Made by a program: the position numbers and the translations under genes | In this document: piece after piece, positions 4,127 through 28,492 of the stretch | How positions within the stretch are numbered: the stretch's first letter is position 1 | Layout of the letters: each line of letters begins with the position of its first letter | The notes under the pieces: model-generated | What the model was told of the DNA's origin: nothing | The model's database searches: none | What the model saw: only the letters and a program-made list of their open reading frames with translations | Origin: Verrucomicrobiia bacterium | Lineage (GTDB): Bacteria > Verrucomicrobiota > Verrucomicrobiia > Limisphaerales > UBA11358 | Assembly (NCBI GenBank): GCA_030038175.1 | Contig: JASHPN010000019.1 | Coordinates: 1-40,208, forward strand | Direction of reading: 5' to 3' | Length of the DNA stretch: 40,208 bases

Positions 4127-4576
4127 ATGTCAAATACCGTCCGTTTGCATCGTGTGCTCCGTGCGTCGCCGGAGAAAATCTATCGGGCCTTCCTGGATGC
4201 CGCGGCCCTGGCCAAATGGCTGCCGCCGAACGGTTTCACCGGCAAGGTCCACCATTTGGACGCCAAAGTGGGCGGCGGTTATAAAATGTCCTTCACGAAT
4301 TTCGGCACGGGCAAGAGCCATTCGTTCGGTGGGACCTATCTGGAACTGGCGCCGTACGCGCGTATTCGGTATTCGAACAAATTCGATGACCCAAATATGA
4401 AGGACGACATGCAAACAACGGTGACGTTGAAGGAGGTATTGTGCGGGACGGACCTCACCGTCGTGCAGGAAGGGATTCCCGCGGCCATTCCCGCGGAAAT
4501 GTGCTATCTCGGCTGGCAGGAATCGCTCGCGCTTCTCAAAGAATTGATCGAGGTGGAAATTCCGGATTCCCCGTAA
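4127..4576 (+). CDS. SRPBCC (AHSA1/START-like) domain protein
   Basis: A 149-residue single-domain protein. The start HRVLRASPEKIYRAFLDAAALAKWLPP is the typical first strand and helix of the AHSA1/CalC branch of the SRPBCC superfamily, and the end (GWQESLALLKELIE) is the long C-terminal helix that closes the hydrophobic cavity. Such proteins bind hydrophobic ligands or act as stress or chaperone accessories; nothing here identifies a ligand. The ATG at 4127 is preceded by aggcgaaaat, a modest ribosome-binding site. It diverges from the flavoprotein gene, and a gene-free stretch follows it. Confidence 0.85.
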   Translation: MSNTVRLHRVLRASPEKIYRAFLDAAALAKWLPPNGFTGKVHHLDAKVGGGYKMSFTNFGTGKSHSFGGTYLELAPYARIRYSNKFDDPNMKDDMQTTVTLKEVLCGTDLTVVQEGIPAAIPAEMCYLGWQESLALLKELIEVEIPDSP

Positions 4577-5019
4577 AATACAACCGTATGATCATCCGAT
4601 CACATTTCAGCCGAATAGCGGCCAAACGGTTTTAACCCGGACACTGTCCGGCAAAAGAAATGGGGCCGGAGAAATCTTCGGATTGCTTCTCAATGGCGAC
4701 CAGATGATTGACAGCCAGTTTGACAAAGGACTGGCGCAAATGAAATCCGTGGTGGAAGCCGCCGTCAAAACGGTAGTTCATGCGTAGGCTGGAGATTTGG
4801 GCCTCGGAGTCTCGGCTGATTTTGAGGTCGCTCTTGTCATGAACCGCCATTGGGGCGCGGCATTCATGCCGCTTCAACGTTCGACAACCGGGATGCCAAT
4901 GTATTCGGTCGTCTCACAACGTCGTGCGCCGAAGCGACCTGAAGGTCGCGCTCCAATACGTCGCCCGACGATTCGTAACGGCAGACGACAGCATCGGTTC
5001 CCAGGCTTCAATGCGCATT
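4577..5019. other. gene-free stretch with palindromes and a possible gene remnant
   Basis: 443 bp without a convincing gene. It contains the perfect interrupted palindrome CCGGACACTGTCCGG (4637-4651). Both strands have open frames over about 4640-4790: plus-strand frame 0 ends ...KSVVEAAVKTVVHA at a TAG near 4787, and a minus-strand 81-codon frame spans 4632-4877. Neither has a recognisable family, ribosome-binding site or full-length domain, so I treat them as chance or as a decayed gene. The right half holds the REP-like hairpins listed separately. Confidence 0.5.
4857..4949. repeat. pair of REP-like palindromes
   Basis: Two perfect short hairpins lie 61 bp apart: GCGGCAT-TC-ATGCCGC (4857-4872) and GCGACCT-GA-AGGTCGC (4934-4949). 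Each has 7-bp arms and a 2-nt spacer, inside an otherwise empty intergenic region. The design (short, GC-rich, near-symmetric, extragenic) is that of dispersed REP-type elements. I recall similar strings in other Verrucomicrobia, but this cannot be checked here, and only one copy of each is in the window. Confidence 0.55.
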
Positions 5020-7284
5020 TTATTGTTTAACCGCATCATACGAGGGCGGCGCCGCATCCGGCCCGCTACCCCATGCCGAAGGTTTGCCGCTCAGGTCGAA
5101 ATCCAGGGTTGCGCCGTGGGACAACGCCGACCAGGGGAGCCAGAGGCGCGGATAGTCCTGACCGTTCAATTTTAAACTTTGGACGTAACAGTTGTCAGGC
5201 CCGGCATTATGGCCGTTGATTTGAATGGTCGCGCCGTTCTCCAGATAGATCGCCGTTTTCGCAAAGACGGGACTGCCGATGACGAAGCCGGCGATGCCGG
5301 GGATTTCCGGATATAGTCCGAGTTGCGAGAAAACGTTCCAGGACGACAGTGCGCCGGCGTCGTCATTGCCGGGAATGCCGCGCGGTTCGGCGACGAACAG
5401 TTCGCTCTGGATGCGGCGGACCACCTTTTGCGTGTGCGCGGGCGCCCCGGCAAAGTCATAGACCCACGGCGTTTCCTCGCACGGTTCATTGCCCATGTAG
5501 GCGGTGGCGCCGCCAAATCCTGAGTTCAAATTCGTGAAAAATTTGTCCAGGCGGGCGACCGCCTTTTCGTTCCCGCCCATTTTCTCAATCAATCCTCCCA
5601 AATTAAAATTCACCATCCAGACGTATTGGACCGGCGTTCCTTCGACAAAACCCTTTTTCGCGGTCGGCGAAAAATCATCAAACCATGCGCCGTCCGCGTC
5701 GCGCGGACGCAGCAGGCCGGTAGAATCATCGAATAACTTCTCCCAATTTTGCGCCCGGTTTTGGTATTCGATGGATTTTTGCGGATCACCCAGGGCTTTT
5801 GCATATTGCGCCAGGGCGAAATCATCGTTGCAATATTCCAACGTCACTGAAACGGCCCCGGGCACATAGCCGAGCGTGAGATAATCTTTCAGGCCGCGCC
5901 GAACCTCGAATCCATCTGAAGTCGTGCCCGGCTGCGAAGCGCCTTTATCCATGGCCGCCAGCGCTCGCTCAGTCTTGAAATGATTTGCGCCAAACGCAAA
6001 CGCCGAAGCGATGATGGCGTCATCGCCGTCGCCGACCATGCCGGCGGAGTTTCGGTTGACCTGTTCCCAACGCGGCAGGCCGCCGCCATTGGGGCGGGCC
6101 GCGGCGTCCTGTTGCGCGTAGTTGACCAGGGATTGCGCGATGTCGCTCACTTCATCGGGCGACAATAAGGAAATGAGCGGCGCGAGCGAACGGTATTGGT
6201 CCCAGGCGGTAATATTTTGATATTGATGATGGCGGGAGCGAACGCGATGAATTTTTCCGTCCATACCCGGGTACTGCCCGTTGACGTCGTCCAAAAGGGT
6301 GGGATGGATATAGGAGTGATAGAGTGACGTGTAAAATGATTGTTTTTCGCTGATAGTCCCGCCCTCAACCTGGATCCGGCCCAGTTCACGGTTCCAAAGC
6401 GCGTCCGCCGCGTGCCGCACCGCGTCGAAGTCCCAGCCCGGATTTTCCCGTTTTAGATTTTTCCTCGCATTTTTCAGGCTCACAAACGAAATTCCCACGC
6501 GGGCCTGCACGACCGGATTGGTCGCGGTGTCGAATGTTAAAATGGCGCCGCAATTATTTCCCGAGGAGTTATGATCGCCGATGGCATTGCCCAGCCACGT
6601 TTTCGCGCTTTGAAAGGGCCGATCAAACTCGGCGATAAAATAAATTTTAAACGCACGCTGCTTTCCGCCAATCGTATCGTTGCAGGAACCCGTCACTTCA
6701 TTGCCTTTGATCGAAATTGAACCGCTGTCCGAATTGATGCTGGAAGCGTGAATGAGCAGGCCGGAGAACGACGACGCCGGAAAAGTAAAGCGGGCCATGC
6801 CCGTGCGCGCCGTCGCGGTCAATTCGGTGACGATGCCGTTGTCCAGCTTGACGCGATAGTAACCCGGCACAGCCACTTCATTGGCGTGCGAGTAGGTCGC
6901 CGCGAAGGGAGTCCAGTCGTCGTCCGGCGCGGTGGTGACCGGCTGGACCACCGGCATGAAGGGAAAATCCATTAGATACATGACGGCGCGCCCGCTGAAA
7001 TGGGTAAGGCTAAAATCAAGAATCGTCGGATCATAATAGGCGTAGCCGCCGGCGTTGCGCGCGATTTGCGTGGTGTCCGGGCTCCAGGCCACCATGCCAT
7101 GGGGACAGACGGCGCCGGGATACGTATTTCCGGCGGCCGCTTTTGGGCCGGAGCGCAACGCCGGGTCAGCCGGGGCCGTTCCGATGAGCGGATTGACGTA
7201 TTGCGTCGCGTTATAGTCCGGCGCCGCGGCGGCAAAGAATGGAAATCCAAGGCAAAGGGCCAGAGTCAGTTGATGCATCTTCAT
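5020..7284 (-). CDS. secreted GH92 family glycoside hydrolase (alpha-mannosidase type)
   Basis: A 754-residue protein, a normal length for GH92. A signal peptide covers about residues 1-20 (MKMHQLTLALCLGFPFFAAA). The N-terminal beta-sandwich starts with YVNPLIGT and carries G-N-T-Y-P-G-A-V-C-P-H-G-M, then LTHFSGRA. The C-terminal (alpha/alpha)6 part has the hallmark GNDDAGALSSWNVFSQLGLYPEIPG. GH92 enzymes are calcium-dependent exo-acting alpha-mannosidases that trim mannose from glycans or mannans. Linkage specificity cannot be read from the sequence. The gene lies 114 bp downstream of the sugar operon on the same strand, which makes mannose a candidate input for the mannose/lyxose-type isomerase there (inference). 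Confidence 0.92.
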   Translation of the reverse strand: MKMHQLTLALCLGFPFFAAAAPDYNATQYVNPLIGTAPADPALRSGPKAAAGNTYPGAVCPHGMVAWSPDTTQIARNAGGYAYYDPTILDFSLTHFSGRAVMYLMDFPFMPVVQPVTTAPDDDWTPFAATYSHANEVAVPGYYRVKLDNGIVTELTATARTGMARFTFPASSFSGLLIHASSINSDSGSISIKGNEVTGSCNDTIGGKQRAFKIYFIAEFDRPFQSAKTWLGNAIGDHNSSGNNCGAILTFDTATNPVVQARVGISFVSLKNARKNLKRENPGWDFDAVRHAADALWNRELGRIQVEGGTISEKQSFYTSLYHSYIHPTLLDDVNGQYPGMDGKIHRVRSRHHQYQNITAWDQYRSLAPLISLLSPDEVSDIAQSLVNYAQQDAAARPNGGGLPRWEQVNRNSAGMVGDGDDAIIASAFAFGANHFKTERALAAMDKGASQPGTTSDGFEVRRGLKDYLTLGYVPGAVSVTLEYCNDDFALAQYAKALGDPQKSIEYQNRAQNWEKLFDDSTGLLRPRDADGAWFDDFSPTAKKGFVEGTPVQYVWMVNFNLGGLIEKMGGNEKAVARLDKFFTNLNSGFGGATAYMGNEPCEETPWVYDFAGAPAHTQKVVRRIQSELFVAEPRGIPGNDDAGALSSWNVFSQLGLYPEIPGIAGFVIGSPVFAKTAIYLENGATIQINGHNAGPDNCYVQSLKLNGQDYPRLWLPWSALSHGATLDFDLSGKPSAWGSGPDAAPPSYDAVKQ

Positions 7285-7398: not shown

Positions 7399-8478
7399 TT
7401 AGGCACTCTGGCGGGCGGCGCCACGGACCTGTTGGAGCCGCAAGCCGCTTTGCGCCAGCGCGAAAAATCCGGCGATGGCCAGCGGCAAGGTGATGGAAAC
7501 GAAAACAACCAGGGCAAAACCCGCCGCTTCGGATTTGCCGACGCCAAAGAAAGTCAAACCAGCCACGACAAACAATTGAAACATCCCGACCCCGGCAGGC
7601 GTGCTGGGAACGCAAGTTCCCAAATAGCCCACGAGAAATATCGCCAGGCTCACCGGGAACGGCAGGTGAAGATTGAATGCCCGTAAAAAACCCAGGAATG
7701 CCGCCGCCTGGATTGCCAACTTCAAGAGCGACAAGCCGAGGATCGGAATCAGCACACCGGAACGGACGATGTCCCGGACTCCATCAGTTAAACGCCGGAA
7801 AGCGAATTGAATTTTCTGAAAGGAGGTTCGACCGGCCGGAATGCCGGGATCCGGGCGCAGTCGTCTTCGGCGCAAGACAACCCATGCCGTCGCCGCGGCG
7901 CCGGCCAGAACAATGGCTCCAAAGATGTTTGCGGCCCGAACCACGCCTGGCGGCAGCGGCAGCGAAAGCGCGGCCAAGCCAATTCCGGACGCCAGCCAAA
8001 TGCCGTCCCAAAGCCGTTCCAGGATCAGGGACGGGAAAATGGAAATGAGACTGACATTCATCCAGCGCGCGGCGAGGATGCCGCGCACCAAATAGCCCAG
8101 TTGCAAGGGTAAGACATCATTGGCAAAGCGCCCCGCGAAGACTGCCTGGGCGGCCCGGCTGGGCGAAAGCCGGCCAACCGGCCGAAGCAATAATTGCCAT
8201 TCGCAGGCCACACAAAAATACGCCAGAAATTGCAATCCAATGCAGATTATCCACAGCCCCCAACGAACGTGTGCCATGCCTTCAAAGAATGGGTCCCAAT
8301 AAATGTTATGAAAAACGCAAAACAGGCAAATGCCGGCCACCAGGTAACTCGCCGAGATTCGAATCCATTTTCCCTTTGTCCCCGATTTTACGATGGGAGC
8401 GGGGCTGGGGCCGTCCTTCCCGGCTCGAATTGGGGCCGGCACAGGCCGCTGGCGATTGTCCGCTGGCAAAACCTCCAT
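7399..8478 (-). CDS. lysylphosphatidylglycerol synthase-like (UPF0104/AglD type) membrane protein
   Basis: About 359 residues with roughly eight hydrophobic segments after a proline-rich cytoplasmic N-terminus. Family features are RFANDVLPLQLGYLVRGILAA in the second quarter and VGYLGTCVPSTPAGVGMFQ near the C-terminus; the PAGVG-type loop marks the LPG_synthase_TM / UPF0104 family. Members are related to the MprF flippase domain and to AglD, and take part in transfer or flipping of polar lipids. There is no aminoacyl-transfer domain, so this is the membrane part only. The ATG at 8478 is chosen; an in-frame TTG at 8514 would overlap the PfkB gene by 11 nt. It is the last gene of the sugar operon, and its link to the metabolic genes is unexplained. 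Confidence 0.8.
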   Translation of the reverse strand: MEVLPADNRQRPVPAPIRAGKDGPSPAPIVKSGTKGKWIRISASYLVAGICLFCVFHNIYWDPFFEGMAHVRWGLWIICIGLQFLAYFCVACEWQLLLRPVGRLSPSRAAQAVFAGRFANDVLPLQLGYLVRGILAARWMNVSLISIFPSLILERLWDGIWLASGIGLAALSLPLPPGVVRAANIFGAIVLAGAAATAWVVLRRRRLRPDPGIPAGRTSFQKIQFAFRRLTDGVRDIVRSGVLIPILGLSLLKLAIQAAAFLGFLRAFNLHLPFPVSLAIFLVGYLGTCVPSTPAGVGMFQLFVVAGLTFFGVGKSEAAGFALVVFVSITLPLAIAGFFALAQSGLRLQQVRGAARQSA

Positions 8479-8503
8479 TGCACATATACTAAGTTCGATC
8501 GCC

Positions 8504-9541
8504 TCAATTTTCAATAATGTTGAAGCCGGACTTTTTTCCCAAGGCCAGACATTGTTTCCACGGCATCAATCCTTCGGAGGCCGTCGGGGACTTTAAACAG
8601 GCGGCGGCGGCGCAGACGCCCAACTCCAGCGCCTCCGGCCAGGGCATATCGTGATAGCGCGCCAGCAAAACGCCCGCCGCGAGCGCATCGCCGGCGCCGA
8701 CAGTGCCTTGAATTTCGTGGCCGGGTAAATTCACCGAACCTTGCGCCAGGCATTCGCCGTCGTCGGTCGCGGCGACCACGCCTTCGCGAAAGTGCAGCAC
8801 AACCGTTCCCCGAACGCCCAGGCCGCGGATGGCTTGCGCCATGTCTTTTGCCCAGGCCGCGTCAAAATCTTGCGGTGCGTCTCCATTGAGCAATTGCGCC
8901 GCTTCCCATTCATTCAAAAACAGGATGTCCAGATGCGGCAAACACGGCACGACCTGCGCGCGCAACTGTAGATTCGGCGCGCTGACCAAATCCGCAGCAG
9001 TGGTCATTCCGGCCGCTCGCGCCTGTTTCAGCAAACGTGCGGAAGCGTTCGTGCCGTCAGCCCCAACGGCATCCAGTCCAGGCAAAAATCCAAGATAACC
9101 AAGGCAAAACACTTTCGCGGATAACGATGCCGGCGATGGCAAATCCTGTTCGCTCAATTGTTCATTCGCGCCGGAGCAGTAAAAAAAAGTCCGCCGGCCG
9201 GAATTTTTTTCCGTCATTACGTCGGTGAAACTGGTCGGGAATTTCGCGGTCGCACGCAGCCCGATGTCGTCAATTTTCAATTCACGGCAGCGCCCGCGGA
9301 TAAAGCGGCCATTGGCGTCGTCGCCGATCAAACCGGCGGCGAACCGCGGGCAGGAAGGATCCAGTGCGGCGAGGTCGGAAAGAAGGTTGAACGCAAATCC
9401 GCCGTTGGCCATCTGGTGCTGCTCGATGCGCGCGAGCGTTGACGGTTCGGGCCAGCGGTCAATACGCTTGACGTGGTCCACGATCCAATGCCCGGCGGCG
9501 AGCATGCCGCGGCGCGCTTCACCCTTTTGAGGAACATTCAT
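8504..9541 (-). CDS. PfkB/ribokinase family carbohydrate kinase
   Basis: 345 residues from the ATG at 9541. That ATG is preceded by GGGAG about 7 nt upstream and overlaps the isomerase gene by 23 nt; an open extension to 9646 has no such support. The N-terminal NGGFAFNLLSDLAAL...FAAGLIGDD corresponds to PfkB signature 1, and GTVGAGDALAAG contains the anion hole and catalytic base (D285). PfkB enzymes phosphorylate sugars or nucleosides using ATP. Because a sugar isomerase lies directly upstream and an aldolase-like gene heads the operon, a ketose or keto-acid substrate is likely (inference). The exact sugar cannot be assigned. Confidence 0.9.
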   Translation of the reverse strand: MNVPQKGEARRGMLAAGHWIVDHVKRIDRWPEPSTLARIEQHQMANGGFAFNLLSDLAALDPSCPRFAAGLIGDDANGRFIRGRCRELKIDDIGLRATAKFPTSFTDVMTEKNSGRRTFFYCSGANEQLSEQDLPSPASLSAKVFCLGYLGFLPGLDAVGADGTNASARLLKQARAAGMTTAADLVSAPNLQLRAQVVPCLPHLDILFLNEWEAAQLLNGDAPQDFDAAWAKDMAQAIRGLGVRGTVVLHFREGVVAATDDGECLAQGSVNLPGHEIQGTVGAGDALAAGVLLARYHDMPWPEALELGVCAAAACLKSPTASEGLMPWKQCLALGKKSGFNIIEN

Positions 9542-10115
9542 GATCGCGCTCCCAAAGCAGGCGCGCTGCCGGCGGCTCGTCCTCGCTGATTCCCGGAAAA
9601 CGCCCGATGTTTGGGTCCACAAAGAAATTGTCGTTCGCGTCGTCATTGGCGGTGGACACTTCGCCGATGACGGCTTCCGGGCTTTCGGGCCAAAAGGCGT
9701 GATAGACGCCTGGCTCGATGGTCACGCGTTCGCCCGGTTGCAGAATGAGCGGTTCGCCGGAGTGGATTTTCACCACATCGCCATTGCGCAACATCGCAAA
9801 GGACTCTCCCTTGCGCGTGCGTTCGGGGTGGCCTTTCCAGAGTTCGATCGCCAGCCGGCCACTGCGGCAGATAATGTCCTCCTTTTTCTGCCGATGCGCG
9901 TGCATGGGCGTTACCTGATGGAATTTGGAATACATGAGCTTTTCGCAGTATTCCCGCTGTTCCGTGAGGTTGACCAAGACCAGCCCGACCTCGGCGAATT
10001 TGCCCAACCCGCAATCAGTGACATCCCAGCGCGGGCGCGGGGGCAGCGCCCAGCCGGAGGATTGGAAACAGCGCATGGCGTCTTTCAAAGCCTGGTTAAT
10101 TTCGGATCGTTTCAT
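9519..10115 (-). CDS. D-lyxose/D-mannose-type sugar isomerase (cupin, DUF1498)
   Basis: A 198-residue single-domain cupin. The metal site is visible as TPMHAHRQKKEDI (two histidines and a glutamate) and a later histidine in PGVYHAFWPE, matching the D-lyxose ketol-isomerase family of E. coli and phages. Known members interconvert D-lyxose/D-xylulose and D-mannose/D-fructose with a divalent metal. The ATG at 10115 lies 3 nt after the enolase stop, so translation is probably coupled. Within this operon it would supply the ketose for the PfkB kinase. An uncharacterised specificity is quite possible, because the family is small and few members have been tested. Confidence 0.85.
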   Translation of the reverse strand: MKRSEINQALKDAMRCFQSSGWALPPRPRWDVTDCGLGKFAEVGLVLVNLTEQREYCEKLMYSKFHQVTPMHAHRQKKEDIICRSGRLAIELWKGHPERTRKGESFAMLRNGDVVKIHSGEPLILQPGERVTIEPGVYHAFWPESPEAVIGEVSTANDDANDNFFVDPNIGRFPGISEDEPPAARLLWERDHECSSKG

Positions 10116-10118
10116 AAT

Positions 10119-11420
10119 TCAACTGTGGTGATTTCGAAAAATTCGCTGAAAAATGTCCGCGCCATAGAACTGCGCGCTGCCGGCCAGTTGGCGCTCAATG
10201 CGAATGATTTGATTCCATTTGGCCATCCGTTCGCCGCGGGAAAAAGAGCCGACTTTGAGCTGGCCCGCGTTCGTGGCGACCGCGAGATGCGAGATGAACG
10301 CGTCCTCGGTCTCCCCGGAACGCGCGGAAATGACCGGCAGCCAGCCGGCCTTTTGCGTCAGCGTTATCGCCTGGAGCGTTTCCGTAACCGTGCCGATTTG
10401 GTTGGGTTTGATGAGCACCGCGTTGGCGACTTTCTTTTCCATGCCGGATTGAATGCGCCGCAAATTCGTCACGAACAGGTCGTCGCCGATGATTTGCACG
10501 CGCGCGCCCAGTTGATTGAAAATCATCTTCCAGCCGTCCCAGTCGGTGTCCGCCATCGGGTCTTCGATGGAAATGATCGGATATCGCGCGCACCAATCGG
10601 CGAGCAACGCTGAAAATTCCGCCGTCGAAAATGTTTTTTGTTCCAGCGCGAAATGATAAGTCCGGGTCTTTTCATCAAATAAATCGCTCGCGGCGATGTC
10701 CAGTGAAATGGCGGCGTCGCGGCCCGGCCGATAACCGGCGGACTCGATGGCCTCGACGAGCAATTGCAACGCTTCTTCATTCGTCTTAAATGCCGGCCAA
10801 TAGCCGCCTTCATCGGCCACGCCGCAAAAGACGCCGCGCCGTTTCAAAATATCGCCCGCCGCATGATAAACGTTGTGCGTGATTTCCATCACTTCGGCAA
10901 ACTCACGCGCGCCGGTGGCGATCAATAGAAAGTCCTGCACGTCCGTCCGCCAATTCGCGTGCGCGCCGCCGCCAATGATTTGAATTTCCGGCAGCGGCAA
11001 AAGCGTTCCGCGATTGCGCCCAAGATAAACAAACAGCGGCTCGCCGCGCGCCGCTGCCGCCGCGTTGGCGGCCGCCATCGAGACGGACAAAATCGCATTT
11101 GCGCCAAGCCGGCTTTTGTTTGGCGTGCCATCCAGCGCAATCAGGGCCTCATCCAGGCCGCTTTGGTCAAACACGTCGCGTCCGTGCAATGCCGGAGCAA
11201 TCACTTCATGAACATGGGCAATGGCTTTGAAAACCGATTTGCCCCGAAACCGCTTCGCGTCGCGGTCGCGCAGTTCCAACGCTTCAAATTGGCCGGTGGA
11301 GGCGCCGGACGGGGCCGCGCCGCGCCCGCGCGCGCCGTTTTCCAAAACAATTTCCGTTTCGATGGTCGGGTTGCCCCGTGAATCGAAAATCTGGAAGGCG
11401 GACAGGGAGGCGATCTTCAT
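10119..11420 (-). CDS. eno: enolase-family protein with an altered active site
   Basis: 433 residues with the complete enolase fold. Visible counterparts of yeast catalytic residues: the serine loop APSGASTG (38-43), H154 (GGAHA), E204 (VADEGG), metal ligands D241, E286 and D313, base K338 (LIKPNQIGT), R368/S369 and K389. The invariant histidine of the H-R-S-G-E-T-E-D motif (yeast H373) is alanine here (A367, SARSGETED), and the glutamate like yeast E168 is D163. Overall it is divergent from housekeeping enolase (LPLPEIQIIGGGAHA instead of the usual P-M-M-N-I-I-N-G-G). Its start overlaps the APH-like gene by 4 nt (ATGA). It is likely an operon-specific paralogue that dehydrates a 2-phospho-acid, 2-phosphoglycerate or a relative. 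Confidence 0.85.
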   Translation of the reverse strand: MKIASLSAFQIFDSRGNPTIETEIVLENGARGRGAAPSGASTGQFEALELRDRDAKRFRGKSVFKAIAHVHEVIAPALHGRDVFDQSGLDEALIALDGTPNKSRLGANAILSVSMAAANAAAAARGEPLFVYLGRNRGTLLPLPEIQIIGGGAHANWRTDVQDFLLIATGAREFAEVMEITHNVYHAAGDILKRRGVFCGVADEGGYWPAFKTNEEALQLLVEAIESAGYRPGRDAAISLDIAASDLFDEKTRTYHFALEQKTFSTAEFSALLADWCARYPIISIEDPMADTDWDGWKMIFNQLGARVQIIGDDLFVTNLRRIQSGMEKKVANAVLIKPNQIGTVTETLQAITLTQKAGWLPVISARSGETEDAFISHLAVATNAGQLKVGSFSRGERMAKWNQIIRIERQLAGSAQFYGADIFQRIFRNHHS

Positions 11421-12400
11421 TTCTTAAACCGGCACAAGCAACTGAACCATGAATTGGATATGGCGCGCAGCGAAAAATTCCCCTCCGGCAAATTCGCCTG
11501 CACAAATTCGCGGACGAATTGCTGTCGCGGCGAATCCAGGTACTCCACCGGCGATTTTCCGTCCACTCTCGCCAGCATCAGCATCAGCAACAGGCGGGCG
11601 GCGCGCGATTCAAGTTCCGGCGACGGCCGTACGGTTTGGTACGCCGACCAGAATTTTTCAATCATCACATTCATTCCAACGTCGCCCGGCGCGTGCCACA
11701 ACGATTTCAGAAAAAAATGATTCAGCAAAGACGCCAGGTCGAACGTCGGGTCGCCAAACCAGGCGCACTCGCAATCCAGCAACACCATGCGGTCGCGATC
11801 CACCAGAATGTTTTTCGGAGTGAAATCGCCGTGGATCAGGCATTGGCGCGTGCCCGCCAGCCGCACGGCTTCAGCCTCGAACAGCGGGTGCAGCGCCGGA
11901 TATTTCGCCCCGGTCGCCAGCAAATACGGTTCGATGCGGAGTTGAAAAAAATTCGGGGCCGTCTGGAACTGCAGCGCCGCCGCGTCGTCGCCGTCGGAGT
12001 GCCGGTGAATTTGCGCCAGCAAATTTCCGGCGCGCGCGGCGTCGGCTTTTCCCTCCAGCAGCAGTTTTTTCCAGTTGGTGAAGCCGCTGTTCAAATATTC
12101 CATCGCGAAATAATTGTCGTTCGCGGAGCAATGCCGCAGGGCCGGCACGGCCTGCGGGAGGAATTGCGCGACGTAGCGGATAAATTTCCACTCGTGCCGG
12201 TTGCGGTTGACATCGGCGAACCAGTCGGCCTGGACGTTCAGTTTTGCCATCGCGCGCTTGACGACGAATCGTTCCGCGCCGTCTTCGACCAGAAAAATCT
12301 CGCCGGAAACGCCGCCGGCCATCGGGACCAGCCGCGCGTTGGGGGCGCGCACGACGCCGTCGCGCCGCAGCAATTCAAGAAATGCGCCGGGCCCGTTCAT
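11417..12400 (-). CDS. APH-fold small-molecule kinase (phosphotransferase enzyme family)
   Basis: 327 residues from the ATG at 12400, which lies 1 nt after the aldehyde dehydrogenase stop; a TTG at 12418 is possible but unsupported. The kinase signatures are FVVKRA (ATP-binding lysine about residue 48), IHGDFTPKNILVD (catalytic aspartate about 192, metal-binding asparagine) and LLDCECAWFGDPTFDLA (metal-binding aspartate about 209). This fold phosphorylates hydroxyls of small molecules such as choline, hexosamines, methylthioribose or aminoglycosides. The metabolic operon makes antibiotic resistance unlikely. Between an aldehyde dehydrogenase and an enolase-like enzyme, a hydroxy-acid such as glycerate is an attractive substrate (inference, not shown for any family member I know). 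Confidence 0.82.
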   Translation of the reverse strand: MNGPGAFLELLRRDGVVRAPNARLVPMAGGVSGEIFLVEDGAERFVVKRAMAKLNVQADWFADVNRNRHEWKFIRYVAQFLPQAVPALRHCSANDNYFAMEYLNSGFTNWKKLLLEGKADAARAGNLLAQIHRHSDGDDAAALQFQTAPNFFQLRIEPYLLATGAKYPALHPLFEAEAVRLAGTRQCLIHGDFTPKNILVDRDRMVLLDCECAWFGDPTFDLASLLNHFFLKSLWHAPGDVGMNVMIEKFWSAYQTVRPSPELESRAARLLLMLMLARVDGKSPVEYLDSPRQQFVREFVQANLPEGNFSLRAISNSWFSCLCRFKK

Positions 12401-12401
12401 T

Positions 12402-13880
12402 TCAAAGCGGCCGCGCAATGGTTTGCGGCCGCAAATAATCGAAAAACGTTTGAGGGCTGTTCACTCCGCCGCCGAAGCCGCTCAAGTTGATGCCGCCGTA
12501 CGGCAGGCCGTAGGCGAATACGTTGTGCGCGTTGATCCAGCTATTGCCGGCGACCATTTTTTCCGCGACGCGCGCGGCACGCTTCAAATCGGAACTCCAG
12601 ACGCTGTTCGCCAAACCGTAGTCGAGGCGATTGACCAGATCAACGGCGTCATTCTCATCTTTGAACTTCAGCAGAAACGCGCTCGGCCCGAAAATTTCCT
12701 CGCGGCAGCAAACGTTTTCCGGCGATCCGGCGAGCAGACTCGGTTGCACATAAAAACCGTTTTCATGGCCGGACGGCACGGCGTTGCCGCCGGGCAGGAT
12801 GACTTCCGCGCCCTGCCTGACGCCGTCTTCCAAATAGCGCAGCACGCGCCGGCGTTGCGTTTCGCTCACGAGCGGGCCCATTTGCGTTTCGCGGTCCGTG
12901 CCCGCGCCAATCTTTGTTTCCTTGAGCGCCGCGACGGCTTTGTTCACCAGTTCATCGTAAATTTTTTCATGCACGAGCCAGCGCGTGGCCGTGCAGCAGA
13001 CCTGGCCGGTATTCAACGTGATTGCTCCGGCGAGCTTTTTCGCGGTTGCTTCCACGTCCAGGTCGTCGAAAACCACCGCCGCGCCCTTGCCGCCGAGTTC
13101 CAGCTTGCACGGCACGAGATTGCGTCCGCAAACCTCGCCGATTTTTTTGCCAACGTCGGGCGAGCCGGTGAACGACATGCGCTTGATTTTCCGATGGCTC
13201 GCCAGCGCGGCGCCCGCCGATGGGCCTTCGCCGATCACGAGGTTGATAACGCCGTCAGGAATGCCGGCTTCCGCGGCGAGTCGCGCGGCAAAGACCGAAC
13301 TCAAGGGCGTGACTTCGGAAGGTTTGACGACGACGGTATTGCCCGCCGCCAGCGCCGGGGCGATGCCCCAAAGCAGCAGGGTGAACGGAAAATTCCATGG
13401 AAAAACATAACCGCAAACGCCATAAGGCGCGGAATGAGTGCGCGCCTCGATATTTTTGATGGCCAGCGGAACGTCGTAATGCGCGTGCGCGGACAGATCG
13501 GCAAAGTAACGCAGACATTCGATGCCGAAGGGAACGTCGAAACCTTCCGCCGCCGTGATCGCTTTGCCGACATCGAGCGATTCAATCAAGGCGAGGTCGG
13601 CGGCATATTTTTCCAACTGTTCCGCGAAGCGATGCAATTTGACCGCGCGCTCGTTGGGAGACAACGCCGACCACGCGGGATACGCTTTCCACGCGGCCGC
13701 GACCGCTTCGTCAATTTCCGCCGCGCCGCCCATTGCGACAGTGGCAAGCGTCGAACCATCCGACGGATTCAGGACGCGCGCGGTCGCGCCGCCGGCGCCA
13801 GGTTTAAATTGCCCGCCTATGAAATGTTGGACCGGCGAGCTTAAAAATTTCGAAACGTTTTGTGTCAATTGGGCATTCAT
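12402..13880 (-). CDS. NAD(P)+-dependent aldehyde dehydrogenase
   Basis: 492 residues, full length for the ALDH superfamily. It has the cofactor-domain motif PWNFP with N162, the general base E261 in LELGGKG, the catalytic cysteine C295 in TGQVCCTATR, and EEIFGPSAF in the catalytic domain. It oxidises an aldehyde to the free acid and has no CoA- or phosphate-specific features I can recognise. It starts 4 nt after the aldolase-like gene and ends 1 nt before the kinase gene. The order aldolase, dehydrogenase, kinase, enolase suggests the aldehyde is the non-phosphorylated half released by the aldolase, such as glyceraldehyde or lactaldehyde (inference). Cytoplasmic, no signal peptide. Confidence 0.93.
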   Translation of the reverse strand: MNAQLTQNVSKFLSSPVQHFIGGQFKPGAGGATARVLNPSDGSTLATVAMGGAAEIDEAVAAAWKAYPAWSALSPNERAVKLHRFAEQLEKYAADLALIESLDVGKAITAAEGFDVPFGIECLRYFADLSAHAHYDVPLAIKNIEARTHSAPYGVCGYVFPWNFPFTLLLWGIAPALAAGNTVVVKPSEVTPLSSVFAARLAAEAGIPDGVINLVIGEGPSAGAALASHRKIKRMSFTGSPDVGKKIGEVCGRNLVPCKLELGGKGAAVVFDDLDVEATAKKLAGAITLNTGQVCCTATRWLVHEKIYDELVNKAVAALKETKIGAGTDRETQMGPLVSETQRRRVLRYLEDGVRQGAEVILPGGNAVPSGHENGFYVQPSLLAGSPENVCCREEIFGPSAFLLKFKDENDAVDLVNRLDYGLANSVWSSDLKRAARVAEKMVAGNSWINAHNVFAYGLPYGGINLSGFGGGVNSPQTFFDYLRPQTIARPL

Positions 13881-13884
13881 AATT

Positions 13885-14934
13885 TTATCGGCTTTCGCCG
13901 TAACTTAATACCGTATCGGTCAATTTCAAATCATCATCCAGCGCGCGCCGCGGCGGGATCGCGCGTTTTTGCAATGCGCCGTGGTAGGCCTTGACCGCTT
14001 CTTTGGCGGAAATCTCGCCGTCCGCGATCGCGCGCAGAAGCGTGATGAAACTCAGTGGCTCCTCGGCATCCTTGATTTTGCGGCCGAATAACGCCACGCG
14101 CGCGCCGTGTTTTTGCGCGTCGGCAAGCAGTTTGAAAGCGTCATACGTCGTGCCGCTGCTGCCGCCGAGCACGCCCACAATCACCGAAGGGTCGTAGGCG
14201 GCGAGTTCTTCCAGGGCGCGCGGGCCGAAGTAGGGAATTTTAAGAAAGGCCGGCCGCCCCGCCGGGGGCACGCCGGCGAGCATCCGGCAAACGCTGTCGT
14301 TGACGAACGCCGGAATTTCTTCGGGCCGCAGACCGGCATCCACATTCGGCGGGAGGACTTCGAGGAAATAATGGAAATGTTTTCGCTCCGCTTCGGCGCG
14401 AAATTCTTTGAACGCCAGCATGGATTCGTAATCGGCGCGCGTTTGATTGTTGAAGGTGATCGAGTAAAGGCCGAGGTTCACCACGGGTTCGGGGTGTGGC
14501 GTGGCATTGCCGCCGCCATGGGCAGTGAGGCTGCCGTATTGTGCCTCTTCGATAAAACCGCTGGCGAAGGGCAGCGAGGGATGCTCGCGATAGCGCGCGC
14601 CGCGCACGCACCAGACGTCGGTCGTGTCATTGATGCGCACCGCGGGCGTGACCTCCAATGAATCGAAGAGCCGTTCGTGATGCGCCAGCGAACTCATCGT
14701 GGAAATTGAGGCAAGTATGATGTCCACGATCCCCTGGCGCGCAACCGCGCGAATTTGCCCGTGAAATTCCGGCATGGTGCGAAACCGCGCGCCGGTCGCG
14801 GGCGCCGGATAAACCTGGCCCGGACTGGGCACGCCCCACCCCATGTCGGCGTCGCGCGCATCGGCCAGGACAAATTCGCGACTCGAAGGATTTTCGCGAA
14901 GGCGCTGCAATTTTTGGATTAATACCGGCTTCAT
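13885..14934 (-). CDS. class I aldolase-like TIM-barrel protein
   Basis: 349 residues, first gene of the sugar operon, ATG at 14934. I do not recognise a well-characterised subfamily. The order of strands looks like a class I aldolase barrel: GIVDIILAS and VNLGLYSITFNN early, HYFLEVLPPN in the middle, FLKIPYFGPRALEELA with a lysine on a beta-strand (Schiff-base candidate), then VIVGVLGGSSGTTYDAFKLL and ARVALFGRKIK, which resemble the phosphate-binding ends of LacD/fructose-bisphosphate-type barrels. The location next to an isomerase, a PfkB kinase and an aldehyde dehydrogenase supports cleavage of a ketose phosphate. A DeoC-like or other lyase activity is not excluded. Confidence 0.6.
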   Translation of the reverse strand: MKPVLIQKLQRLRENPSSREFVLADARDADMGWGVPSPGQVYPAPATGARFRTMPEFHGQIRAVARQGIVDIILASISTMSSLAHHERLFDSLEVTPAVRINDTTDVWCVRGARYREHPSLPFASGFIEEAQYGSLTAHGGGNATPHPEPVVNLGLYSITFNNQTRADYESMLAFKEFRAEAERKHFHYFLEVLPPNVDAGLRPEEIPAFVNDSVCRMLAGVPPAGRPAFLKIPYFGPRALEELAAYDPSVIVGVLGGSSGTTYDAFKLLADAQKHGARVALFGRKIKDAEEPLSFITLLRAIADGEISAKEAVKAYHGALQKRAIPPRRALDDDLKLTDTVLSYGESR

Positions 14935-15190: not shown

Positions 15191-16159
15191 TCAATTATAT
15201 GGTTGCGCCTTCGGCCCAAGCCGGACAGCCCCATGCGTTCCCAGGCGGATCAAAAATTCGCGGGCGTGCTGTTCCTGCATTTGTTGCGTCTGGCTGCGAA
15301 ATTCCGTCGGCGTCAAGCGGGTGATTTCGCGAAAGCGGCGGTTGAAATTGGCCAGATTGTTGTAACCACATTGGAAGGCGGCCTGGGTAATGGCGATTTT
15401 TTGACCGGCCAGAAGCGCGCATACTTTCGCCACGCGCAGTTCATTCAGATACCTTTGGAAGACCCGCCCGACGCGCGACTTGAACCAGCGGCTGAAGGCC
15501 GGCGGCGACATTTTCACCCCCGCCGCGGCATGCGCTTGCGTGATGGGCTCGGCAAAATGATCCTGAATCCATTCCAGCAGCCGTTCCACGCGCTGGTCCG
15601 GATCGGTCAAGTCGCCCGCGGTGTGCGCGCCGTTTAAAAAACGAAACGGCGCGTGCAGCAGCCGTTGAAAAATGGCGAGAAATTGGATCAGGCTTTCAAA
15701 TGAATGCGCCGGCTGCGCCGCCAGGGCTTCAATTTGTTCGCCAATTTGCCAGGCCGCCGGACCGGTGAATTTGACGCCGCGCGCCGATTGCGCCAGAAAA
15801 CGATTTAGCTTCCGAACTTCCGGCAGTTGCCAGAAGGCTTCGCTCCAATGCCTCGGCAAAAATTGGATGACCGACCATTCGGCTTCCGCCGGTTGGTCCA
15901 GGGCCGAGGCCCAGGTATGCGGCAGCCGGCTGCCCAGCAAAACTAAATCGCCGGCTTCAAATCGTTCAACGGATTTGCCCACGTAACGCAAACCGCAGCC
16001 CTGGCGAATCCAAACCAATTCCACCTCGTGATGATAATGCCACAGGAAATGAAACGTCGGCTCGCGGTAATGGCTGACCATGAAGGCGTGCGACTCGGCT
16101 TCCGGCAGCGGCACCAGGCGCGGTTGCCGGCTCACTTCGGATTTGGAAACGATTCGCAT
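15191..16159 (-). CDS. AraC-family transcriptional regulator with N-terminal cupin
   Basis: 322 residues from the ATG at 16159 (a TTG lies 6 nt upstream). The N-terminal cupin sensor shows FHFLWHYHHEVELVWIRQG and FEAGDLVLLGSRLPHTW, the form common in sugar-sensing AraC proteins. The C-terminal double helix-turn-helix runs from HFAEPITQAHAAAGVKMSPPAF to ITQAAFQCGYNNLANFNRRFREITRLTPTEFR. It lies directly upstream of, and on the same strand as, the aldolase/ALDH/enolase operon, so it is the best candidate for its regulator (inference). It is separated from that operon by the CGCAAAGG repeat element. Confidence 0.9.
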   Translation of the reverse strand: MRIVSKSEVSRQPRLVPLPEAESHAFMVSHYREPTFHFLWHYHHEVELVWIRQGCGLRYVGKSVERFEAGDLVLLGSRLPHTWASALDQPAEAEWSVIQFLPRHWSEAFWQLPEVRKLNRFLAQSARGVKFTGPAAWQIGEQIEALAAQPAHSFESLIQFLAIFQRLLHAPFRFLNGAHTAGDLTDPDQRVERLLEWIQDHFAEPITQAHAAAGVKMSPPAFSRWFKSRVGRVFQRYLNELRVAKVCALLAGQKIAITQAAFQCGYNNLANFNRRFREITRLTPTEFRSQTQQMQEQHAREFLIRLGTHGAVRLGPKAQPYN

Positions 16160-16223
16160 CAGCAACGCATCACGTTATTTATGTATGGGGCATTTGCAAA
16201 TGAATATCCGATGTTTCTCCGGG

Positions 16224-17643: not shown

Positions 17644-18399
17644 TCAGGTAAGTCGGATTAGATTTTCCTTAAATGCCTTGGACAGGGCGCTGCCGCGACT
17701 GTGAACATGCAGCTTGGTATAAATATTCCGTAAATGAGTGTCGGCGGTGAAGTAGCTAATTTCCAGTTTCTCGGCAATTTCTTTGGTCGCCAATCCCTGC
17801 GCCATTAACTCCAGAATCTCCCGTTCCCGCCTGGTCAGCCCGTAATTGGACGTCTCCTTCGGCTGCGCCAGGCGGTTGAACATATCGAGCACCGATCTTG
17901 CCACGATCGCCGTCATCGGCGAACCGCCCGCGACGGCTTCGTGGACGGCACTAATGATCCGGGCGGAGGAGTCGGTCTTAAGCAAGTAGCCCGAGGCGCC
18001 CGAACAAATGGCGGTAAACACCTTGTTATCGTCGTGAAAGACAGTCAACATCACAATCTGCGTGGCGGGCGAAGCGGCCTTGATGGTTTTGACCGCCTCC
18101 AAACCGCTCTGCCCGGGCAATTCGACGTCCAATAGCAGAACGGCGGGAAATTCACCCGTCCGCAGGGTTTCCAAAGCGGCTTCGACGCTGGAAAACTGGC
18201 GTGTGCATTTCATTCCGCCGGTTTGGTTGATCACACGGGCAACGGTTTGCCGAAACGGTTGGTGGTCTTCAACGAGCCAGACGCTGACCGGTGCTGGTTT
18301 TAATTTCATCGCCGGCTCCGCCAAATCGTCGGGGGTGATGGCAACACGAGTCCGCGCACCGCCGGGAAGACTCGCCGAGGGATAATCCTGTGCCGCCAT
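17644..18399 (-). CDS. NarL/FixJ-type response regulator
   Basis: 251 residues, ATG at 18399; an internal ATG at 18309 (MKLKPAPVSVW) lies right before the receiver domain and may be the true start. The receiver domain has the acidic pair in WLVEDHQ, the phospho-acceptor D91 in LLLDVELPGQSG, a threonine in VMLTVFHDD and the lysine in YLLKTDS. The output domain is a LuxR-type HTH (LTRREREILELMAQGLATKEIAEKLEISYFTADTHLRNIYTKL). It is transcribed 62 nt downstream of the sensor kinase gene, its probable partner. Likely targets are the glycan genes sharing the 37-bp motif described below (inference). Confidence 0.93.
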   Translation of the reverse strand: MAAQDYPSASLPGGARTRVAITPDDLAEPAMKLKPAPVSVWLVEDHQPFRQTVARVINQTGGMKCTRQFSSVEAALETLRTGEFPAVLLLDVELPGQSGLEAVKTIKAASPATQIVMLTVFHDDNKVFTAICSGASGYLLKTDSSARIISAVHEAVAGGSPMTAIVARSVLDMFNRLAQPKETSNYGLTRREREILELMAQGLATKEIAEKLEISYFTADTHLRNIYTKLHVHSRGSALSKAFKENLIRLT

Positions 18400-18461
18400 A
18401 AATTATTTTGTTGTTGACGCATAAATCTATCTCGCAACGAACCGCGGCCCCAATACCGGAT

Positions 18462-21400
18462 TCACGGGAAGGGAGCCGTGAGGCTGACGATCGTGCCGCC
18501 GGCAGGAGAACGCCGGATTCGCAGGATCCCCTTCATGTCCCGGGCCCGCCGGTGCATGTTCTTGAGCCCCTTGCCCTCGACCGGTTTGTCGGGATCAAAG
18601 CCCGAGCCGTTGTCGCTGATGGACAAGTGAAATTCGTTTGCCTCATATCCCACCTGAATGTCAACGCGCGTCGCCTGAGCATGTTTCACGATATTGTGCA
18701 AGGCTTCCTTGAACAAGGGAAGCACGTTGCGCCGGAACGACAGAATCAACTCCGTCGTTTTGAAATTACCGGTCTGGTGGAAGTGCAATTCGATGCCGAG
18801 CAGATGCGCCCGGGCGGTCGCCTGCAGGCGCGTCACCAGGTCGCTCATCCGGTTGTAGGTGGGGTCAATAAACCAGACGACGTCCCGGAGGGAATCAATG
18901 GTTTGGAGGGCCATCTGCCGGACTTCCTGGCCATCACTGGCGGAGGGATGCTGTTCAATGAATTCACCGAGCAGCGCGATGGTGCCCAACCCCGCGCCGA
19001 CTTCGTCGTGGAGGTCGCGGGCAATCCGCAACCGTTCGCTCTGGAGCGCGCGAATGCGCGAGATGCGGATGGCAAAGACGGTCCACACGAGTCCTCCGGC
19101 CAGCAACACCAGCATGGTTTTGAACCGCCAGGTTTGCCAGAAGAACGGTTGGACGATTAATCCAATCGCGGCTCCGGATCTGTTCCAAACTCCGTCGCCA
19201 TTGCAGGCGGTAACATGAAAAGAGTAAGTGCCAGGCGGGATTGAGCCATAGCCGACGACCCTTCGCTCTCCACCGTAAATCCAGTTTAGATCCAACCCTT
19301 CCATTTTCCATTTGAACCGGACCTTTTCGGGAGCGGAAAGATTCAGGCCGGTGAACTGGAATTCAACGTAATGCCGGCCTGGCCCCAGGCGAAGAAATTG
19401 TTCCGGCTCGCCCGGCCTGCTCGAATCGCCTCCTCCCGGAGCCTCGCGGACCCCCGGCAATTCCCGGTTGAGGCTTCCATCCACCCGCACATTCTCAATC
19501 AAAACGGAGGGAGGCAGGGAGTTGAGGACAAGATCCCTGGGCTGCACCCAGACCAACCCCTTGACCGTGGTGAACCACAAACGACCGTCCTGACCGCGCC
19601 AGCAGCCCGGCTGAAATCCCGAACTGCATTCCACGGTGGGCAAACCTTCGTCCCGGTCATAAACCTCGCAGCGGATGGTCGGTTCTTTTCCATCGGCGAC
19701 TCCGTTCAGGGTTTGGAGATCCATCCTGAAAATGCCACCCCGGGAACCAGCCCAAAGATTTCCCGCGCCGTCAACCAGCATTTGGGAAATGTAGTCATTG
19801 GGCAAACCTTGTTCACTGCCCAGGCGGACGAACTGGCCATCATGAAATCGCACCAACCCGCCGCCCAGGGTGCCAATCCAGAGCGTCCCATTGGTGTCAC
19901 AGGCCAAACACCAGAAATGAGCTTTTGAAAAATTGTCCGGACTTTTGAAAGTTTGAAATTTTCCCTCGCGGTATCTCAGTAAATGGCTGGTTGCCGTGCT
20001 GATCCAAATCGCACCTGTGGCATCCTCCGCGATTCCGGTGACGTGGCAGGGGCTGCCGACTTCGTCAGCTCCAAATTTTTTCAAAGTCCCATCCTGCCAG
20101 CACGCAAGACCGAACTCACTCCCGAACCACATCCGGCCTTGCCGATCCGCAAACAACACCCGCGCGACGGTGCCGATATCGGCCGAGGGAAACGGCCGGC
20201 GCAGGATTCCGTTTTCCCTTACCAATACCCCGCACCGCACCGTGCCAATCCACAAACGGCCGGCGGCGTCGCCACAAACCGTAACATCGAAAATCGGAGG
20301 CCGGGTAACGGCAGACAAATCCAAGGGCGTCATGACCTCGTCCTGCCAGCGGGCCATCAGGCCCGAGCTGGTCCCCACCCAAACAGCGCCGGCCTGAGCC
20401 TCGCAGACCGAACACACGTTTCGGTCCGGCAACACGGCGCTGTCCTGCACCACGTGAAATATCCGCTTTCGCAGCCGCACCAGTCCGCTATTTTCGGTGC
20501 CCATCCAGATATTTCCATCCTTATCCTGAAACCAGCATTTGATTTTTGTGCTGGGCAGGCCGTCCTGCTCGGTCAACTTCTGAATTTTTCCATCGGGCAA
20601 CACATGCCAAACCGCCTCGCCGTAGTTGATGACCCACAAGCCGCCGTCCCGGTCGCCATGCAACTGGAATCCCCCCATCGAAAGTTTGAACTCCAGTGCG
20701 CCGGGCCCGGTGGCCCGGACCCACTGGTGATCCAGCCATTTCCGCAAGCGGCCATTATTCTCCAGCACCCACAAACCGCCGTCTCCGGTGGAGGCCATGT
20801 CGTTGACGCTGAAGCCCGGGGCATTCGTCGGATTGCGATTTTTGAAATGCCCGCCTTCCCGCTCTGCCAACCCCTCGTCCGATCCCACCCAAACATGGCC
20901 CTGGGTGTCCAGGCAAATGGCCGAGATTGCATGGCCCGGTATGCCCGCGTCCCGGGAAAGCGCCGCACCCTGGTTAATCTGAAAACGGCCCAGCCAGTTA
21001 TCGCTCGTCCGATACCAAATGGCGCCGTCCCGATCCATGCAGTAGAATGGCTGGCGGCTGGTCGTGGGCTGGTAGTAAGTCCAAGCCATGGAATTCGAAC
21101 TGGCAACGCCCACCATTAAGGCCACGGTCTGGGACAGACTGGAAGTCAGGATAACCTGGTTGGAATAAACCCCCAGGACCGAACCCAGACGCAGCCTGGC
21201 GCTGGATTGTTCGAGGCGTTTCAAATAAAACCTGCCCCGATTCCAGGCCGTAAGCGACGCGTCTGAAGGACCGATCCACAAGGCTCCGTGCCCGTCCACC
21301 CCCAGGGCCTGGATTTCGTTGGCCCTCAATTCAGGTGTGTTAAACGGGTTAAAGACAGAAAAGCGAATTCCATCGAACCGCGCCAAACCGCCGTGAAAAA

Positions 21401-21620: not shown

Positions 21621-21693
21621 ATTGTGCCAAAACTTTACGTTCTATGCCGGGATTGAAAAAGATATTTTTGATTTTGGACTCCGCATCTGTCGG

Positions 21694-21730
21694 TGAACAA
21701 AATGACCTTTTTTGTTGCACTTTTTGGCAA
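21694..21730 (-). promoter_or_regulatory. shared 37-bp upstream motif, copy 1
   Basis: Read on the minus strand it is TTGCCAAAAAGTGCAA, nine purine-rich bases, then TCATTTTGTTCA. It ends 73 nt before the sensor kinase ATG, in the 265-bp divergent region shared with the rhamnosidase gene. It matches copy 3 at 29 of 37 positions without gaps. A further identical 11-mer (GATTAAATTAT on the plus strand, 21799-21809) lies at the same distance as in copy 3. Confidence 0.6.
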
Positions 21731-21885
21731 GCTGCGGCAAACGGCCCAATTTCCCACAGCGATTACTCATGTCTAACTCCAAAGGGAAAGGTTTTTATGA
21801 TTAAATTATTGAAGGCCGGCCGAATTTACCGATAGTTTAGTTCGCGAGCAAGGTCCTCAAGTTGGTCGCACTTAAAAGGCACGAA

Positions 21886-24831: not shown

Positions 24832-24862
24832 GCGCGGCAAGTGGCCCGATCACGGCCATTGA

Positions 24863-24905: not shown

Positions 24906-24926
24906 AAGAGGACGATATGATTTCAT

Positions 24927-25913: not shown

Positions 25914-25925
25914 GGGGTTCGTTCG

Positions 25926-28460: not shown

Positions 28461-28492
28461 AATTCCCTCGTTGTAAGACGCCTTGCCGGTTT

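Follow-up and report, generated by a model that had tools for sequence, protein, structure and literature searches.

The contig JASHPN010000019.1 of a Verrucomicrobiia bacterium (assembly GCA_030038175.1) carries on its minus strand a row of six closely spaced genes, here called A–F, in which an altered second enolase (D) follows a kinase of the APH fold (C). We propose that A–F form a catabolic operon that would lead from a ketose 1-phosphate through a 2-hydroxy acid to phosphoenolpyruvate (PEP), the acid being a three-carbon (C3) compound other than D-glycerate, a reading that the sequence comparisons make probable, if not comfortably so. What the central pair would do is an evenly balanced call: C may phosphorylate the 2-hydroxyl of an acid that is not D-glycerate, with L-glycerate as the first candidate and sulfolactate or some other C3-substituted acid as the next, and D may be an enolase fold with new chemistry, either PEP-forming or epimerising.

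The stretch analysed, hereafter the window, is one whole contig (40208 bases) of a 431-contig assembly. The listing of open reading frames (ORFs) places seven of them, A–F and a seventh, G, closely packed on the minus strand from 14934 down to 7399, where an initial annotation of this DNA had put them. Together with the regulator gene in front of them they are:

15191..16165, minus strand: AraC-type regulator directly upstream of A, candidate local regulator (PF12833)
13885..14934, minus strand: A, putative class I (Schiff-base type) dihydroxyacetone phosphate (DHAP) aldolase of the DhnA/LacD superfamily, unnamed family (weak NCBIfam match, model, Foldseek)
12402..13880, minus strand: B, aldehyde dehydrogenase (PF00171, 490 bits)
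11417..12418, minus strand: C, APH-fold kinase, proposed 2-hydroxy-acid 2-kinase (PF01636, 70 bits)
10119..11420, minus strand: D, enolase paralogue with an altered leaving-group pocket (D163, A366, V390; TIGR01060, 558 bits)
9519..10115, minus strand: E, cupin-fold aldose-ketose isomerase of the D-lyxose/D-mannose isomerase family (PF07385, 175 bits)
8504..9541, minus strand: F, PfkB-family sugar kinase, proposed ketose 1-kinase (PF00294, 90 bits)
7399..8514, minus strand: G, LPG_synthase_TM/flippase-like membrane protein (PF03706, 117 bits)

In the proposed pathway E, judged by its family, would turn an aldose into a ketose and F would phosphorylate the ketose on C1. A, for which we rely on the modelled fold and the position of a lysine, would split the ketose 1-phosphate into DHAP and what we suppose to be a neutral 2-hydroxy aldehyde. 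B would oxidise this aldehyde to the 2-hydroxy acid, C would phosphorylate the 2-hydroxyl of the acid, and D would convert the product into PEP. Were the acid L-glycerate, D could either dehydrate its phosphate directly to PEP or epimerise it to ordinary 2-phosphoglycerate.

The enolase paralogue has lost both side chains that hold the C3 hydroxyl

The same genome encodes a second enolase on another contig (C411; 659 bits against TIGR01060) with canonical motifs, which bears out the view of D as a paralogue. Compared with this canonical enzyme, D of the window and its counterparts in loci L020, L039, L040 and L043 have changes in common. When 25 kinase-linked paralogues were aligned with 30 canonical enolases, leaving out the fragments L021, L038 and L044, the replacements E163D and H366A were found in 25/25 paralogues, as were Val or Ile for T390, beside the second lysine, and Gly or Ser for N150 in loop 2. 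In a report on E. coli enolase, Glu167, Lys392 and His369 bind the hydroxyl of SF2312 that mimics the C3 hydroxyl of 2-phosphoglycerate (PMC6863902); a report on human ENO2 likewise has a C3-hydroxyl-mimicking group bound by Glu167 and His371 (PMC6651268). Mapped by motif, the two replaced positions correspond to this Glu and this His: of the three E. coli residues D keeps the lysine and has Asp163 and Ala366 in place of the others. An arginine in loop 2 (WRT), considered as a clue to the substrate, was rejected as not being common to all paralogues.

A quick tree of 72 enolase rows was built without bootstraps and contains several long branches; L257, whose match falls into two pieces, and L259, which has no SxRSGE motif, were left out, and one X letter was deleted in each of four rows. 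One branch splits off 31 canonical enolases (Shimodaira–Hasegawa-like approximate likelihood-ratio test, SH-aLRT, 84) and another splits off 40 paralogues (SH-aLRT 94), and the His/Ala/Gly state changes twice along the tree, the minimum for three states. The enolase of the Rhizobium locus L245 lies outside both groups on a very long branch. At this locus (4530-7266, on a plasmid of Rhizobium sp. CB3090) the odd enolase paralogue, with SGRSGG for SHRSGE and NEF for QEF, comes after a gene for a GckA-type glycerate 2-kinase, and the two are perhaps a second, independent kinase-enolase pairing. Elsewhere, a phosphoenolpyruvate hydrolase-like gene (L233:7881-8768; PF09370, 429 bits) lies about 4 kb from a stand-alone enolase paralogue with the motif SARSGETED.

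The kinase and the enolase paralogue occur together

C matches the APH family and, marginally, fructosamine kinase, and it matches neither of the glycerate kinase classes PF02595 and PF13660. Its Lys54, HGD (196-198), Asn203 and Asp215 are invariant in 5/5 sequences, and its structural model (predicted local distance difference test, pLDDT, 77.5) is closest to methylthioribose kinase. C is present in 4/387 genomes of the window's phylum, its own included (E 1e-40), and in 29/392 planctomycete genomes (E 1e-35). The SARSGETED DNA pattern of the enolase paralogues occurs in 31 of these 392 genomes; C and the pattern are found together in 28, against 2.3 expected (Fisher p 2.6e-38, uncorrected for phylogeny), and in 8 of the 28 the two genes do not share a contig or are separated by more than 100 kb. 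In three planctomycetes (G645, G656 and G661) the motif occurs with no C at E 1e-35, and in the first two of them a C gene below the cut-off stands beside D.

Plasmids extend this picture. The surroundings of C were read for 17 of the 32 plasmid records with a C homologue, two of which (Rhodococcus L250 and L254) are near-copies; the 17 loci come from alpha- and betaproteobacteria, one Enterobacter, Rhodococcus, Persicobacter and two haloarchaea. In 16 of them an enolase that has both replacements at the C3-hydroxyl site (SARSGET and QD) lies within about 7 kb of C, and the enolase of a Methylocystis plasmid without C nearby (L246) is canonical. Judged from these sequences, C–D is a separable, widespread two-enzyme module that other bacteria and haloarchaea would use in other pathways. 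In the open-licence literature we found no description of this kinase-enolase pair, of the pathway or of an L-glycerate route of this kind, in keeping with the initial annotation, which knew of no described pathway with this set. On the Enterobacter chuandaensis plasmid (L259:7250-9975) a C relative of 30% identity stands beside an enolase-like "hypothetical protein" of 32% identity on the other strand; the surrounding cluster looks biosynthetic and also includes genes for an aminotransferase, a U32 peptidase-like protein, a nucleotidyltransferase and an MFS transporter.

The acid is probably not D-glycerate

The most familiar route that these enzymes could compose resembles fructolysis: E would convert D-mannose to D-fructose, F would make fructose 1-phosphate, A would release DHAP and D-glyceraldehyde, B would form D-glycerate, C 2-phospho-D-glycerate and D, as a merely dedicated phosphopyruvate hydratase, PEP. 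It is favoured by the family of E and its solved relatives, by a ketohexokinase-family kinase in three sister operons, by a GH92 gene 114 nucleotides (nt) downstream, beyond G, GH92 being a family known for alpha-mannosidases, and by the row of 2-hydroxyacid dehydrogenase, C and PEP carboxylase genes on two Rhizobium plasmids, which resembles the second half of the serine cycle. The GH92 gene is, however, not conserved, and the enzymes already resident in the carriers of the pair speak against the route. The top-scoring enolase is canonical by its motifs in 29/30 carriers, the thirtieth (G562) having the paralogue and only an enolase fragment that ends short of the motif. A classical glycerate kinase family is present in 25 of the 27 carriers searched (PF13660, GckA-type, in 13 and PF02595, GlxK-type, in 12 others; G021 and G428 have neither), and a PF02595 kinase is encoded elsewhere in the genome of the window. 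A C that produced 2-phospho-D-glycerate would have no need to travel with D, its product being usable by the resident enolase; yet 28/29 C carriers also have the altered D. Since D moreover lacks both side chains that hold the C3 hydroxyl, the acid is likely not D-glycerate, and we consider this fructolysis-like route unlikely.

The initial annotation had offered D-glycerate, 2-phosphoglycerate and PEP as its example, with "PEP or an analogue" as the product of the enolase-like protein. The plain D-glycerate route is not the best reading, because the enolase subfamily is altered and tied to a kinase, because a canonical enolase and, in most cases, a glycerate kinase are already present in the carriers, and because C–D is a widespread, independent pair; the words "or an analogue" came closer.

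What else stands beside the pair is varied. PEP carboxylase and D-isomer-specific 2-hydroxyacid dehydrogenase genes lie directly upstream of C on the two Rhizobium plasmids, and Rhodococcus and Sphingobium have a dehydrogenase of the same family next to the enolase and C genes. The Paracoccus and Roseibium loci contain an SDR, an FAH-type hydrolase and a sugar ABC transporter, and the haloarchaeal loci contain sugar-acid dehydratases, aldolases and an IlvC-like reductase. Planctomycete neighbours include GntP permeases and a TctA transporter, with a GntP-type permease gene lying between D and C in L159 (by Pfam) and L156 (by sequence likeness); the extended neighbourhoods of planctomycete C–D and stand-alone D genes gave few clues to the acid. 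Taken together, these neighbours resemble enzymes that supply a 2-hydroxy acid of three carbons and enzymes that consume PEP, and the probable task of C–D is to form PEP from such a C3 acid, D-glycerate excepted. L-glycerate best suits both the neighbours and the resident enzymes and is the likeliest single candidate, a tentative guess that may well be wrong.

Several observations pull the other way. D exceeds the TIGR01060 cut-off for a phosphopyruvate hydratase (558 bits against 300) and retains the motifs of the metal ligands, the general acid Glu, the catalytic lysines and the phosphate-binding Arg-Ser, whose catalytic roles we take to be those of enolase. The full A–F set was found in only two genomes, and in G022 (L021/L038), a low-coverage assembly, C alone is complete, A, B and D being present in pieces. 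Among the planctomycetes G759 has C without the SARSGETED motif and G661 has the motif with no C found, and the Enterobacter locus L259 combines a distant C with an enolase relative lacking the motif. The dehydrogenases beside C or C–D belong to the Pfam D-isomer-specific 2-hydroxyacid dehydrogenases in 3/3 scanned, and a PanE-like reductase neighbours planctomycete C–D genes; enzymes of both kinds usually make (R)-hydroxy acids, so such neighbours would favour D- over L-glycerate. The D-mannose/D-lyxose family of E, together with the downstream GH92 gene, would likewise point to D-glyceraldehyde.

The dehydrogenase pocket suggests a neutral aldehyde

A new form of sulfoglycolysis would take a sulfoquinovose-type sugar to sulfolactaldehyde, which B would oxidise to sulfolactate, C would phosphorylate to 2-phosphosulfolactate and D would convert to PEP and sulfite. 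Elimination of sulfite to give PEP is the reverse of phosphosulfolactate synthase chemistry, and the leaving-group pocket of D is changed. TctA-type transporters lie near some C genes, and B has a Trp-Asn-Phe tripeptide in common with a characterised sulfolactaldehyde dehydrogenase. As a review describes them, the enzyme classes of the sulfo-Embden–Meyerhof–Parnas (sulfo-EMP) pathway match those of the operon up to sulfolactate (PMC12890257). B nevertheless lacks both proposed sulfonate-binding arginines, or the His/Asn that other such dehydrogenases have, in 7/7 sequences: placed by motif rather than by alignment with sulfolactaldehyde dehydrogenase, the position of Arg171 is occupied by Trp and that of Arg289 by Leu or Phe. 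On balance this pocket speaks for a neutral aldehyde. The annotated C–D loci contain no gene labelled as sulfite-handling, the unannotated ones having been read by eye only.

The further link to sulfoquinovose is an isomerase-like protein of about 505 residues, here called X, the first gene in several A-type operons (L040:6776-8293, L039, L042, L106 and L244). Sulfoquinovose isomerase SftI is its sole NCBIfam match in 5/5 copies, at 88-159 bits far under the equivalog cut-off of 700; three copies scanned had no Pfam match over cut-off, and no PDB sequence was matched significantly. X also occurs without C–D (L042 and L106) and is missing from the window. The sulfolactate reading is thus lowered because the pocket of B suggests a neutral aldehyde and kept alive because X resembles sulfoquinovose isomerase; overall we judge it quite improbable.

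An acid of at least four carbons (such as a tetronate derived from a heptulose 1-phosphate), from which D would make a substituted phosphoenol acid, is less probable again: Glu to Asp and His to Ala would widen the pocket at C3, and a GntP-type permease gene separates D and C in two loci, but the stand-alone C–D pairs, read by eye only, have no partner enzyme for a C4 product beside them and the linkage to PEP carboxylase points to PEP itself.

The gene set recurs with exchanged parts

Returning to the C3 reading and the operon as a whole, relatives of A are present in 17/40 related genomes, the window's own included, and locus L020 (genome G021) has all of A–F at 70-84% identity, without G. 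A scan of named genomes for A kept 80 loci (L036-L115), 535 having been confirmed. Both C and D accompany A in 4 of the 80 (L038 included), an isomerase or PfkB relative without both C and D in 16, two or more microcompartment markers in 43, one marker in 6 and none of the sorted features in 11; the loci are unequal in length, so absence of a gene is weak evidence. The arrangement is X-ketohexokinase-E-A-B-C-D behind an AraC gene in the Verrucomicrobiota strain JB024 (L040), E-ketohexokinase-A-B-C-D in an Opitutaceae member (L043) and X-ketohexokinase-A-C-D, again with AraC, in the planctomycete Aporhodopirellula aestuarii (L039). On a Persicobacter (Bacteroidota) plasmid aldolase-X-PfkB stands next to AraC-B-C-D, and the aldolase is a class II fructose bisphosphate (FBP)-type enzyme non-homologous to A. 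That such an enzyme takes the place of A is good evidence that A is an aldolase.

A survey of gene neighbourhoods, which the initial annotation had proposed, thus shows the set to be more than chance, since it recurs in other genomes, and the genome context supports a pathway through ketose 1-phosphate, aldolase and acid. Relatives of the AraC-type regulator (26-31% identity) adjoin A-type operons in L039, L040, L042, L049 and L106, and B-C-D in L244. Locus L049 (986-7124) has PfkB-A-aldehyde dehydrogenase followed by FAD-oxidase and Fe-S genes resembling GlcD and GlcF, without C–D, and may be a variant that oxidises the acid rather than phosphorylating it.

The aldolase, isomerase and sugar kinase

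A matches no recognisable sequence family: it has no Pfam match, its NCBIfam match (LsrF/DhnA-type) reaches 19 bits, and a profile search of PDB sequences reached LsrF at E about 0.5. Pfam and NCBIfam upheld the families initially assigned to B–G, and for A gave nothing beyond these weak LsrF/DhnA-type matches. An AlphaFold2 model built from 27 sequences (mean pLDDT 88, predicted template modelling score 0.89) is a TIM barrel whose sixth strand (231-233) bears K232, a residue invariant in 27/27 aligned relatives. Its best Foldseek matches, at 10-17% identity, are M. jannaschii ADH synthase (with bound DHAP or FBP), LsrF, an archaeal FBP aldolase and tagatose-bisphosphate aldolase. The sixth strand is where we take the Schiff-base lysine of the DhnA-type aldolase superfamily to lie, and Lys232 is therefore, in the model, the candidate catalytic residue. 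A-family proteins without a Pfam name also occur in Planctomycetes-Verrucomicrobia microcompartment (PVM) loci, L023 and L030 among them, often beside a class II aldolase of the described type. This points to an unnamed family of DHAP aldolases that is a frequent companion of PVM loci.

E scores 124.6 bits against the NCBIfam model LyManIsomGneg (NF051472), under its equivalog cut-off of 350, and 104 bits against E. coli D-lyxose isomerase (3KMH). The cupin metal-ligand motif (His, His, Glu, His) is kept there and in 14/14 E-type rows of the alignment, two of which (L026 and L068) represent a single locus. We considered an arginine of the isomerase motif as an anion site and dropped it, isomerases of operons without C–D carrying it too. 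The kinases of L039, L040 and L043 match Pfam Prokaryotic ketohexokinase (PF25270), the lowest of the three scores being 143 bits, the middle one 148 and the highest 154; F itself has no match to PF25270 over the 35-bit Pfam cut-off and matches PF00294 only.

The order of reactions first suggested (isomerase, PfkB kinase, aldolase, aldehyde dehydrogenase, kinase, enolase) agrees with the fold and the strand-6 lysine of A, the class II aldolase swap in Persicobacter, the ketohexokinase-family kinases of the three sister operons and the linkage of C to PEP carboxylase on the two Rhizobium plasmids. That interpretation is partly supported: right in outline, it missed the main point, the altered enolase and its kinase.

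Gene layout and surroundings

The junctions are as tight as had been noted. A gap of 4 nt separates A and B, B and C are 1 nt apart if C starts at ATG 12400, as it probably does (from TTG 12418 they would overlap by 17 nt), C and D overlap by 4 nt, D and E lie 3 nt apart, and F and G overlap by 11 nt, counted from the TTG of G. F probably starts at ATG 9541 or 9505, not 9646. The row does not end in its enolase, as had been stated, D being the fourth gene. Nor does the flippase-like gene, counted as a seventh member, belong to it: at E 1e-5 none of 16 loci, L020 with all of A–F included, contains a match to G or to the GH92 gene, and G is outside the conserved set despite overlapping F. Farther along the window (17644-28496) a sensor kinase gene (Reg_prop/Y_Y_Y/HATPase) and a LuxR-type response regulator gene are divergent from a GH78 alpha-L-rhamnosidase gene, and an alpha/beta hydrolase gene and then a GH3 gene follow on the opposite strand.

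Comparison with known systems

Enolase is among the most conserved metabolic enzymes, and a sharply defined enolase subfamily with two identical active-site replacements, spread over several phyla and linked to one kinase, would be a new function under a housekeeping name. If our reading is right, the pair would open a third way to PEP, in addition to those through glycolysis and through the classical glycerate kinases, and would give a home to an orphan acid, possibly L-glycerate. It would also correct the annotations "phosphopyruvate hydratase" for D and "aminoglycoside phosphotransferase" or "phosphotransferase" for C. With canonical enolase D has in common the TIGR01060 score and the retained catalytic motifs; it differs in having Asp and Ala at the C3-hydroxyl site, Val or Ile for Thr and Gly or Ser for Asn, and in its linkage to an APH-fold kinase.

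Liver-type fructolysis consists of ketohexokinase, aldolase B and aldehyde dehydrogenase/glycerate kinase. It shares with the operon a ketose 1-kinase, an aldolase yielding DHAP and a free aldehyde, oxidation to an acid and an acid kinase; the operon differs in its aldolase and acid-kinase families, in having its own enolase paralogue and in the bacterial isomerase in front. With the second half of the serine cycle the two Rhizobium plasmids have in common a cluster of genes for a 2-hydroxyacid dehydrogenase, an acid kinase, an enolase and PEP carboxylase; they differ in that the kinase has the APH fold, the enolase is of the altered subfamily and the remaining annotated genes do not look methylotrophic.

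With sulfo-EMP and sulfo-EMP2, as the review describes them, the operon shares an isomerase, a kinase giving the 1-phosphate, an aldolase releasing DHAP and, possibly as the final step, an aldehyde dehydrogenase (PMC12890257). It differs in that B lacks the proposed sulfonate-binding arginines, and the word "enolase" is missing from that review. PVM bacterial microcompartment loci (L-fucose/L-rhamnose) contain A-family proteins about 51-55% identical to A. The window has no shell genes among the 19 ORFs scanned, ORFs beyond 29419 and some small ones not being among them, and the signature aldolase described for PVM loci is a different, class II protein (PMC4207490).

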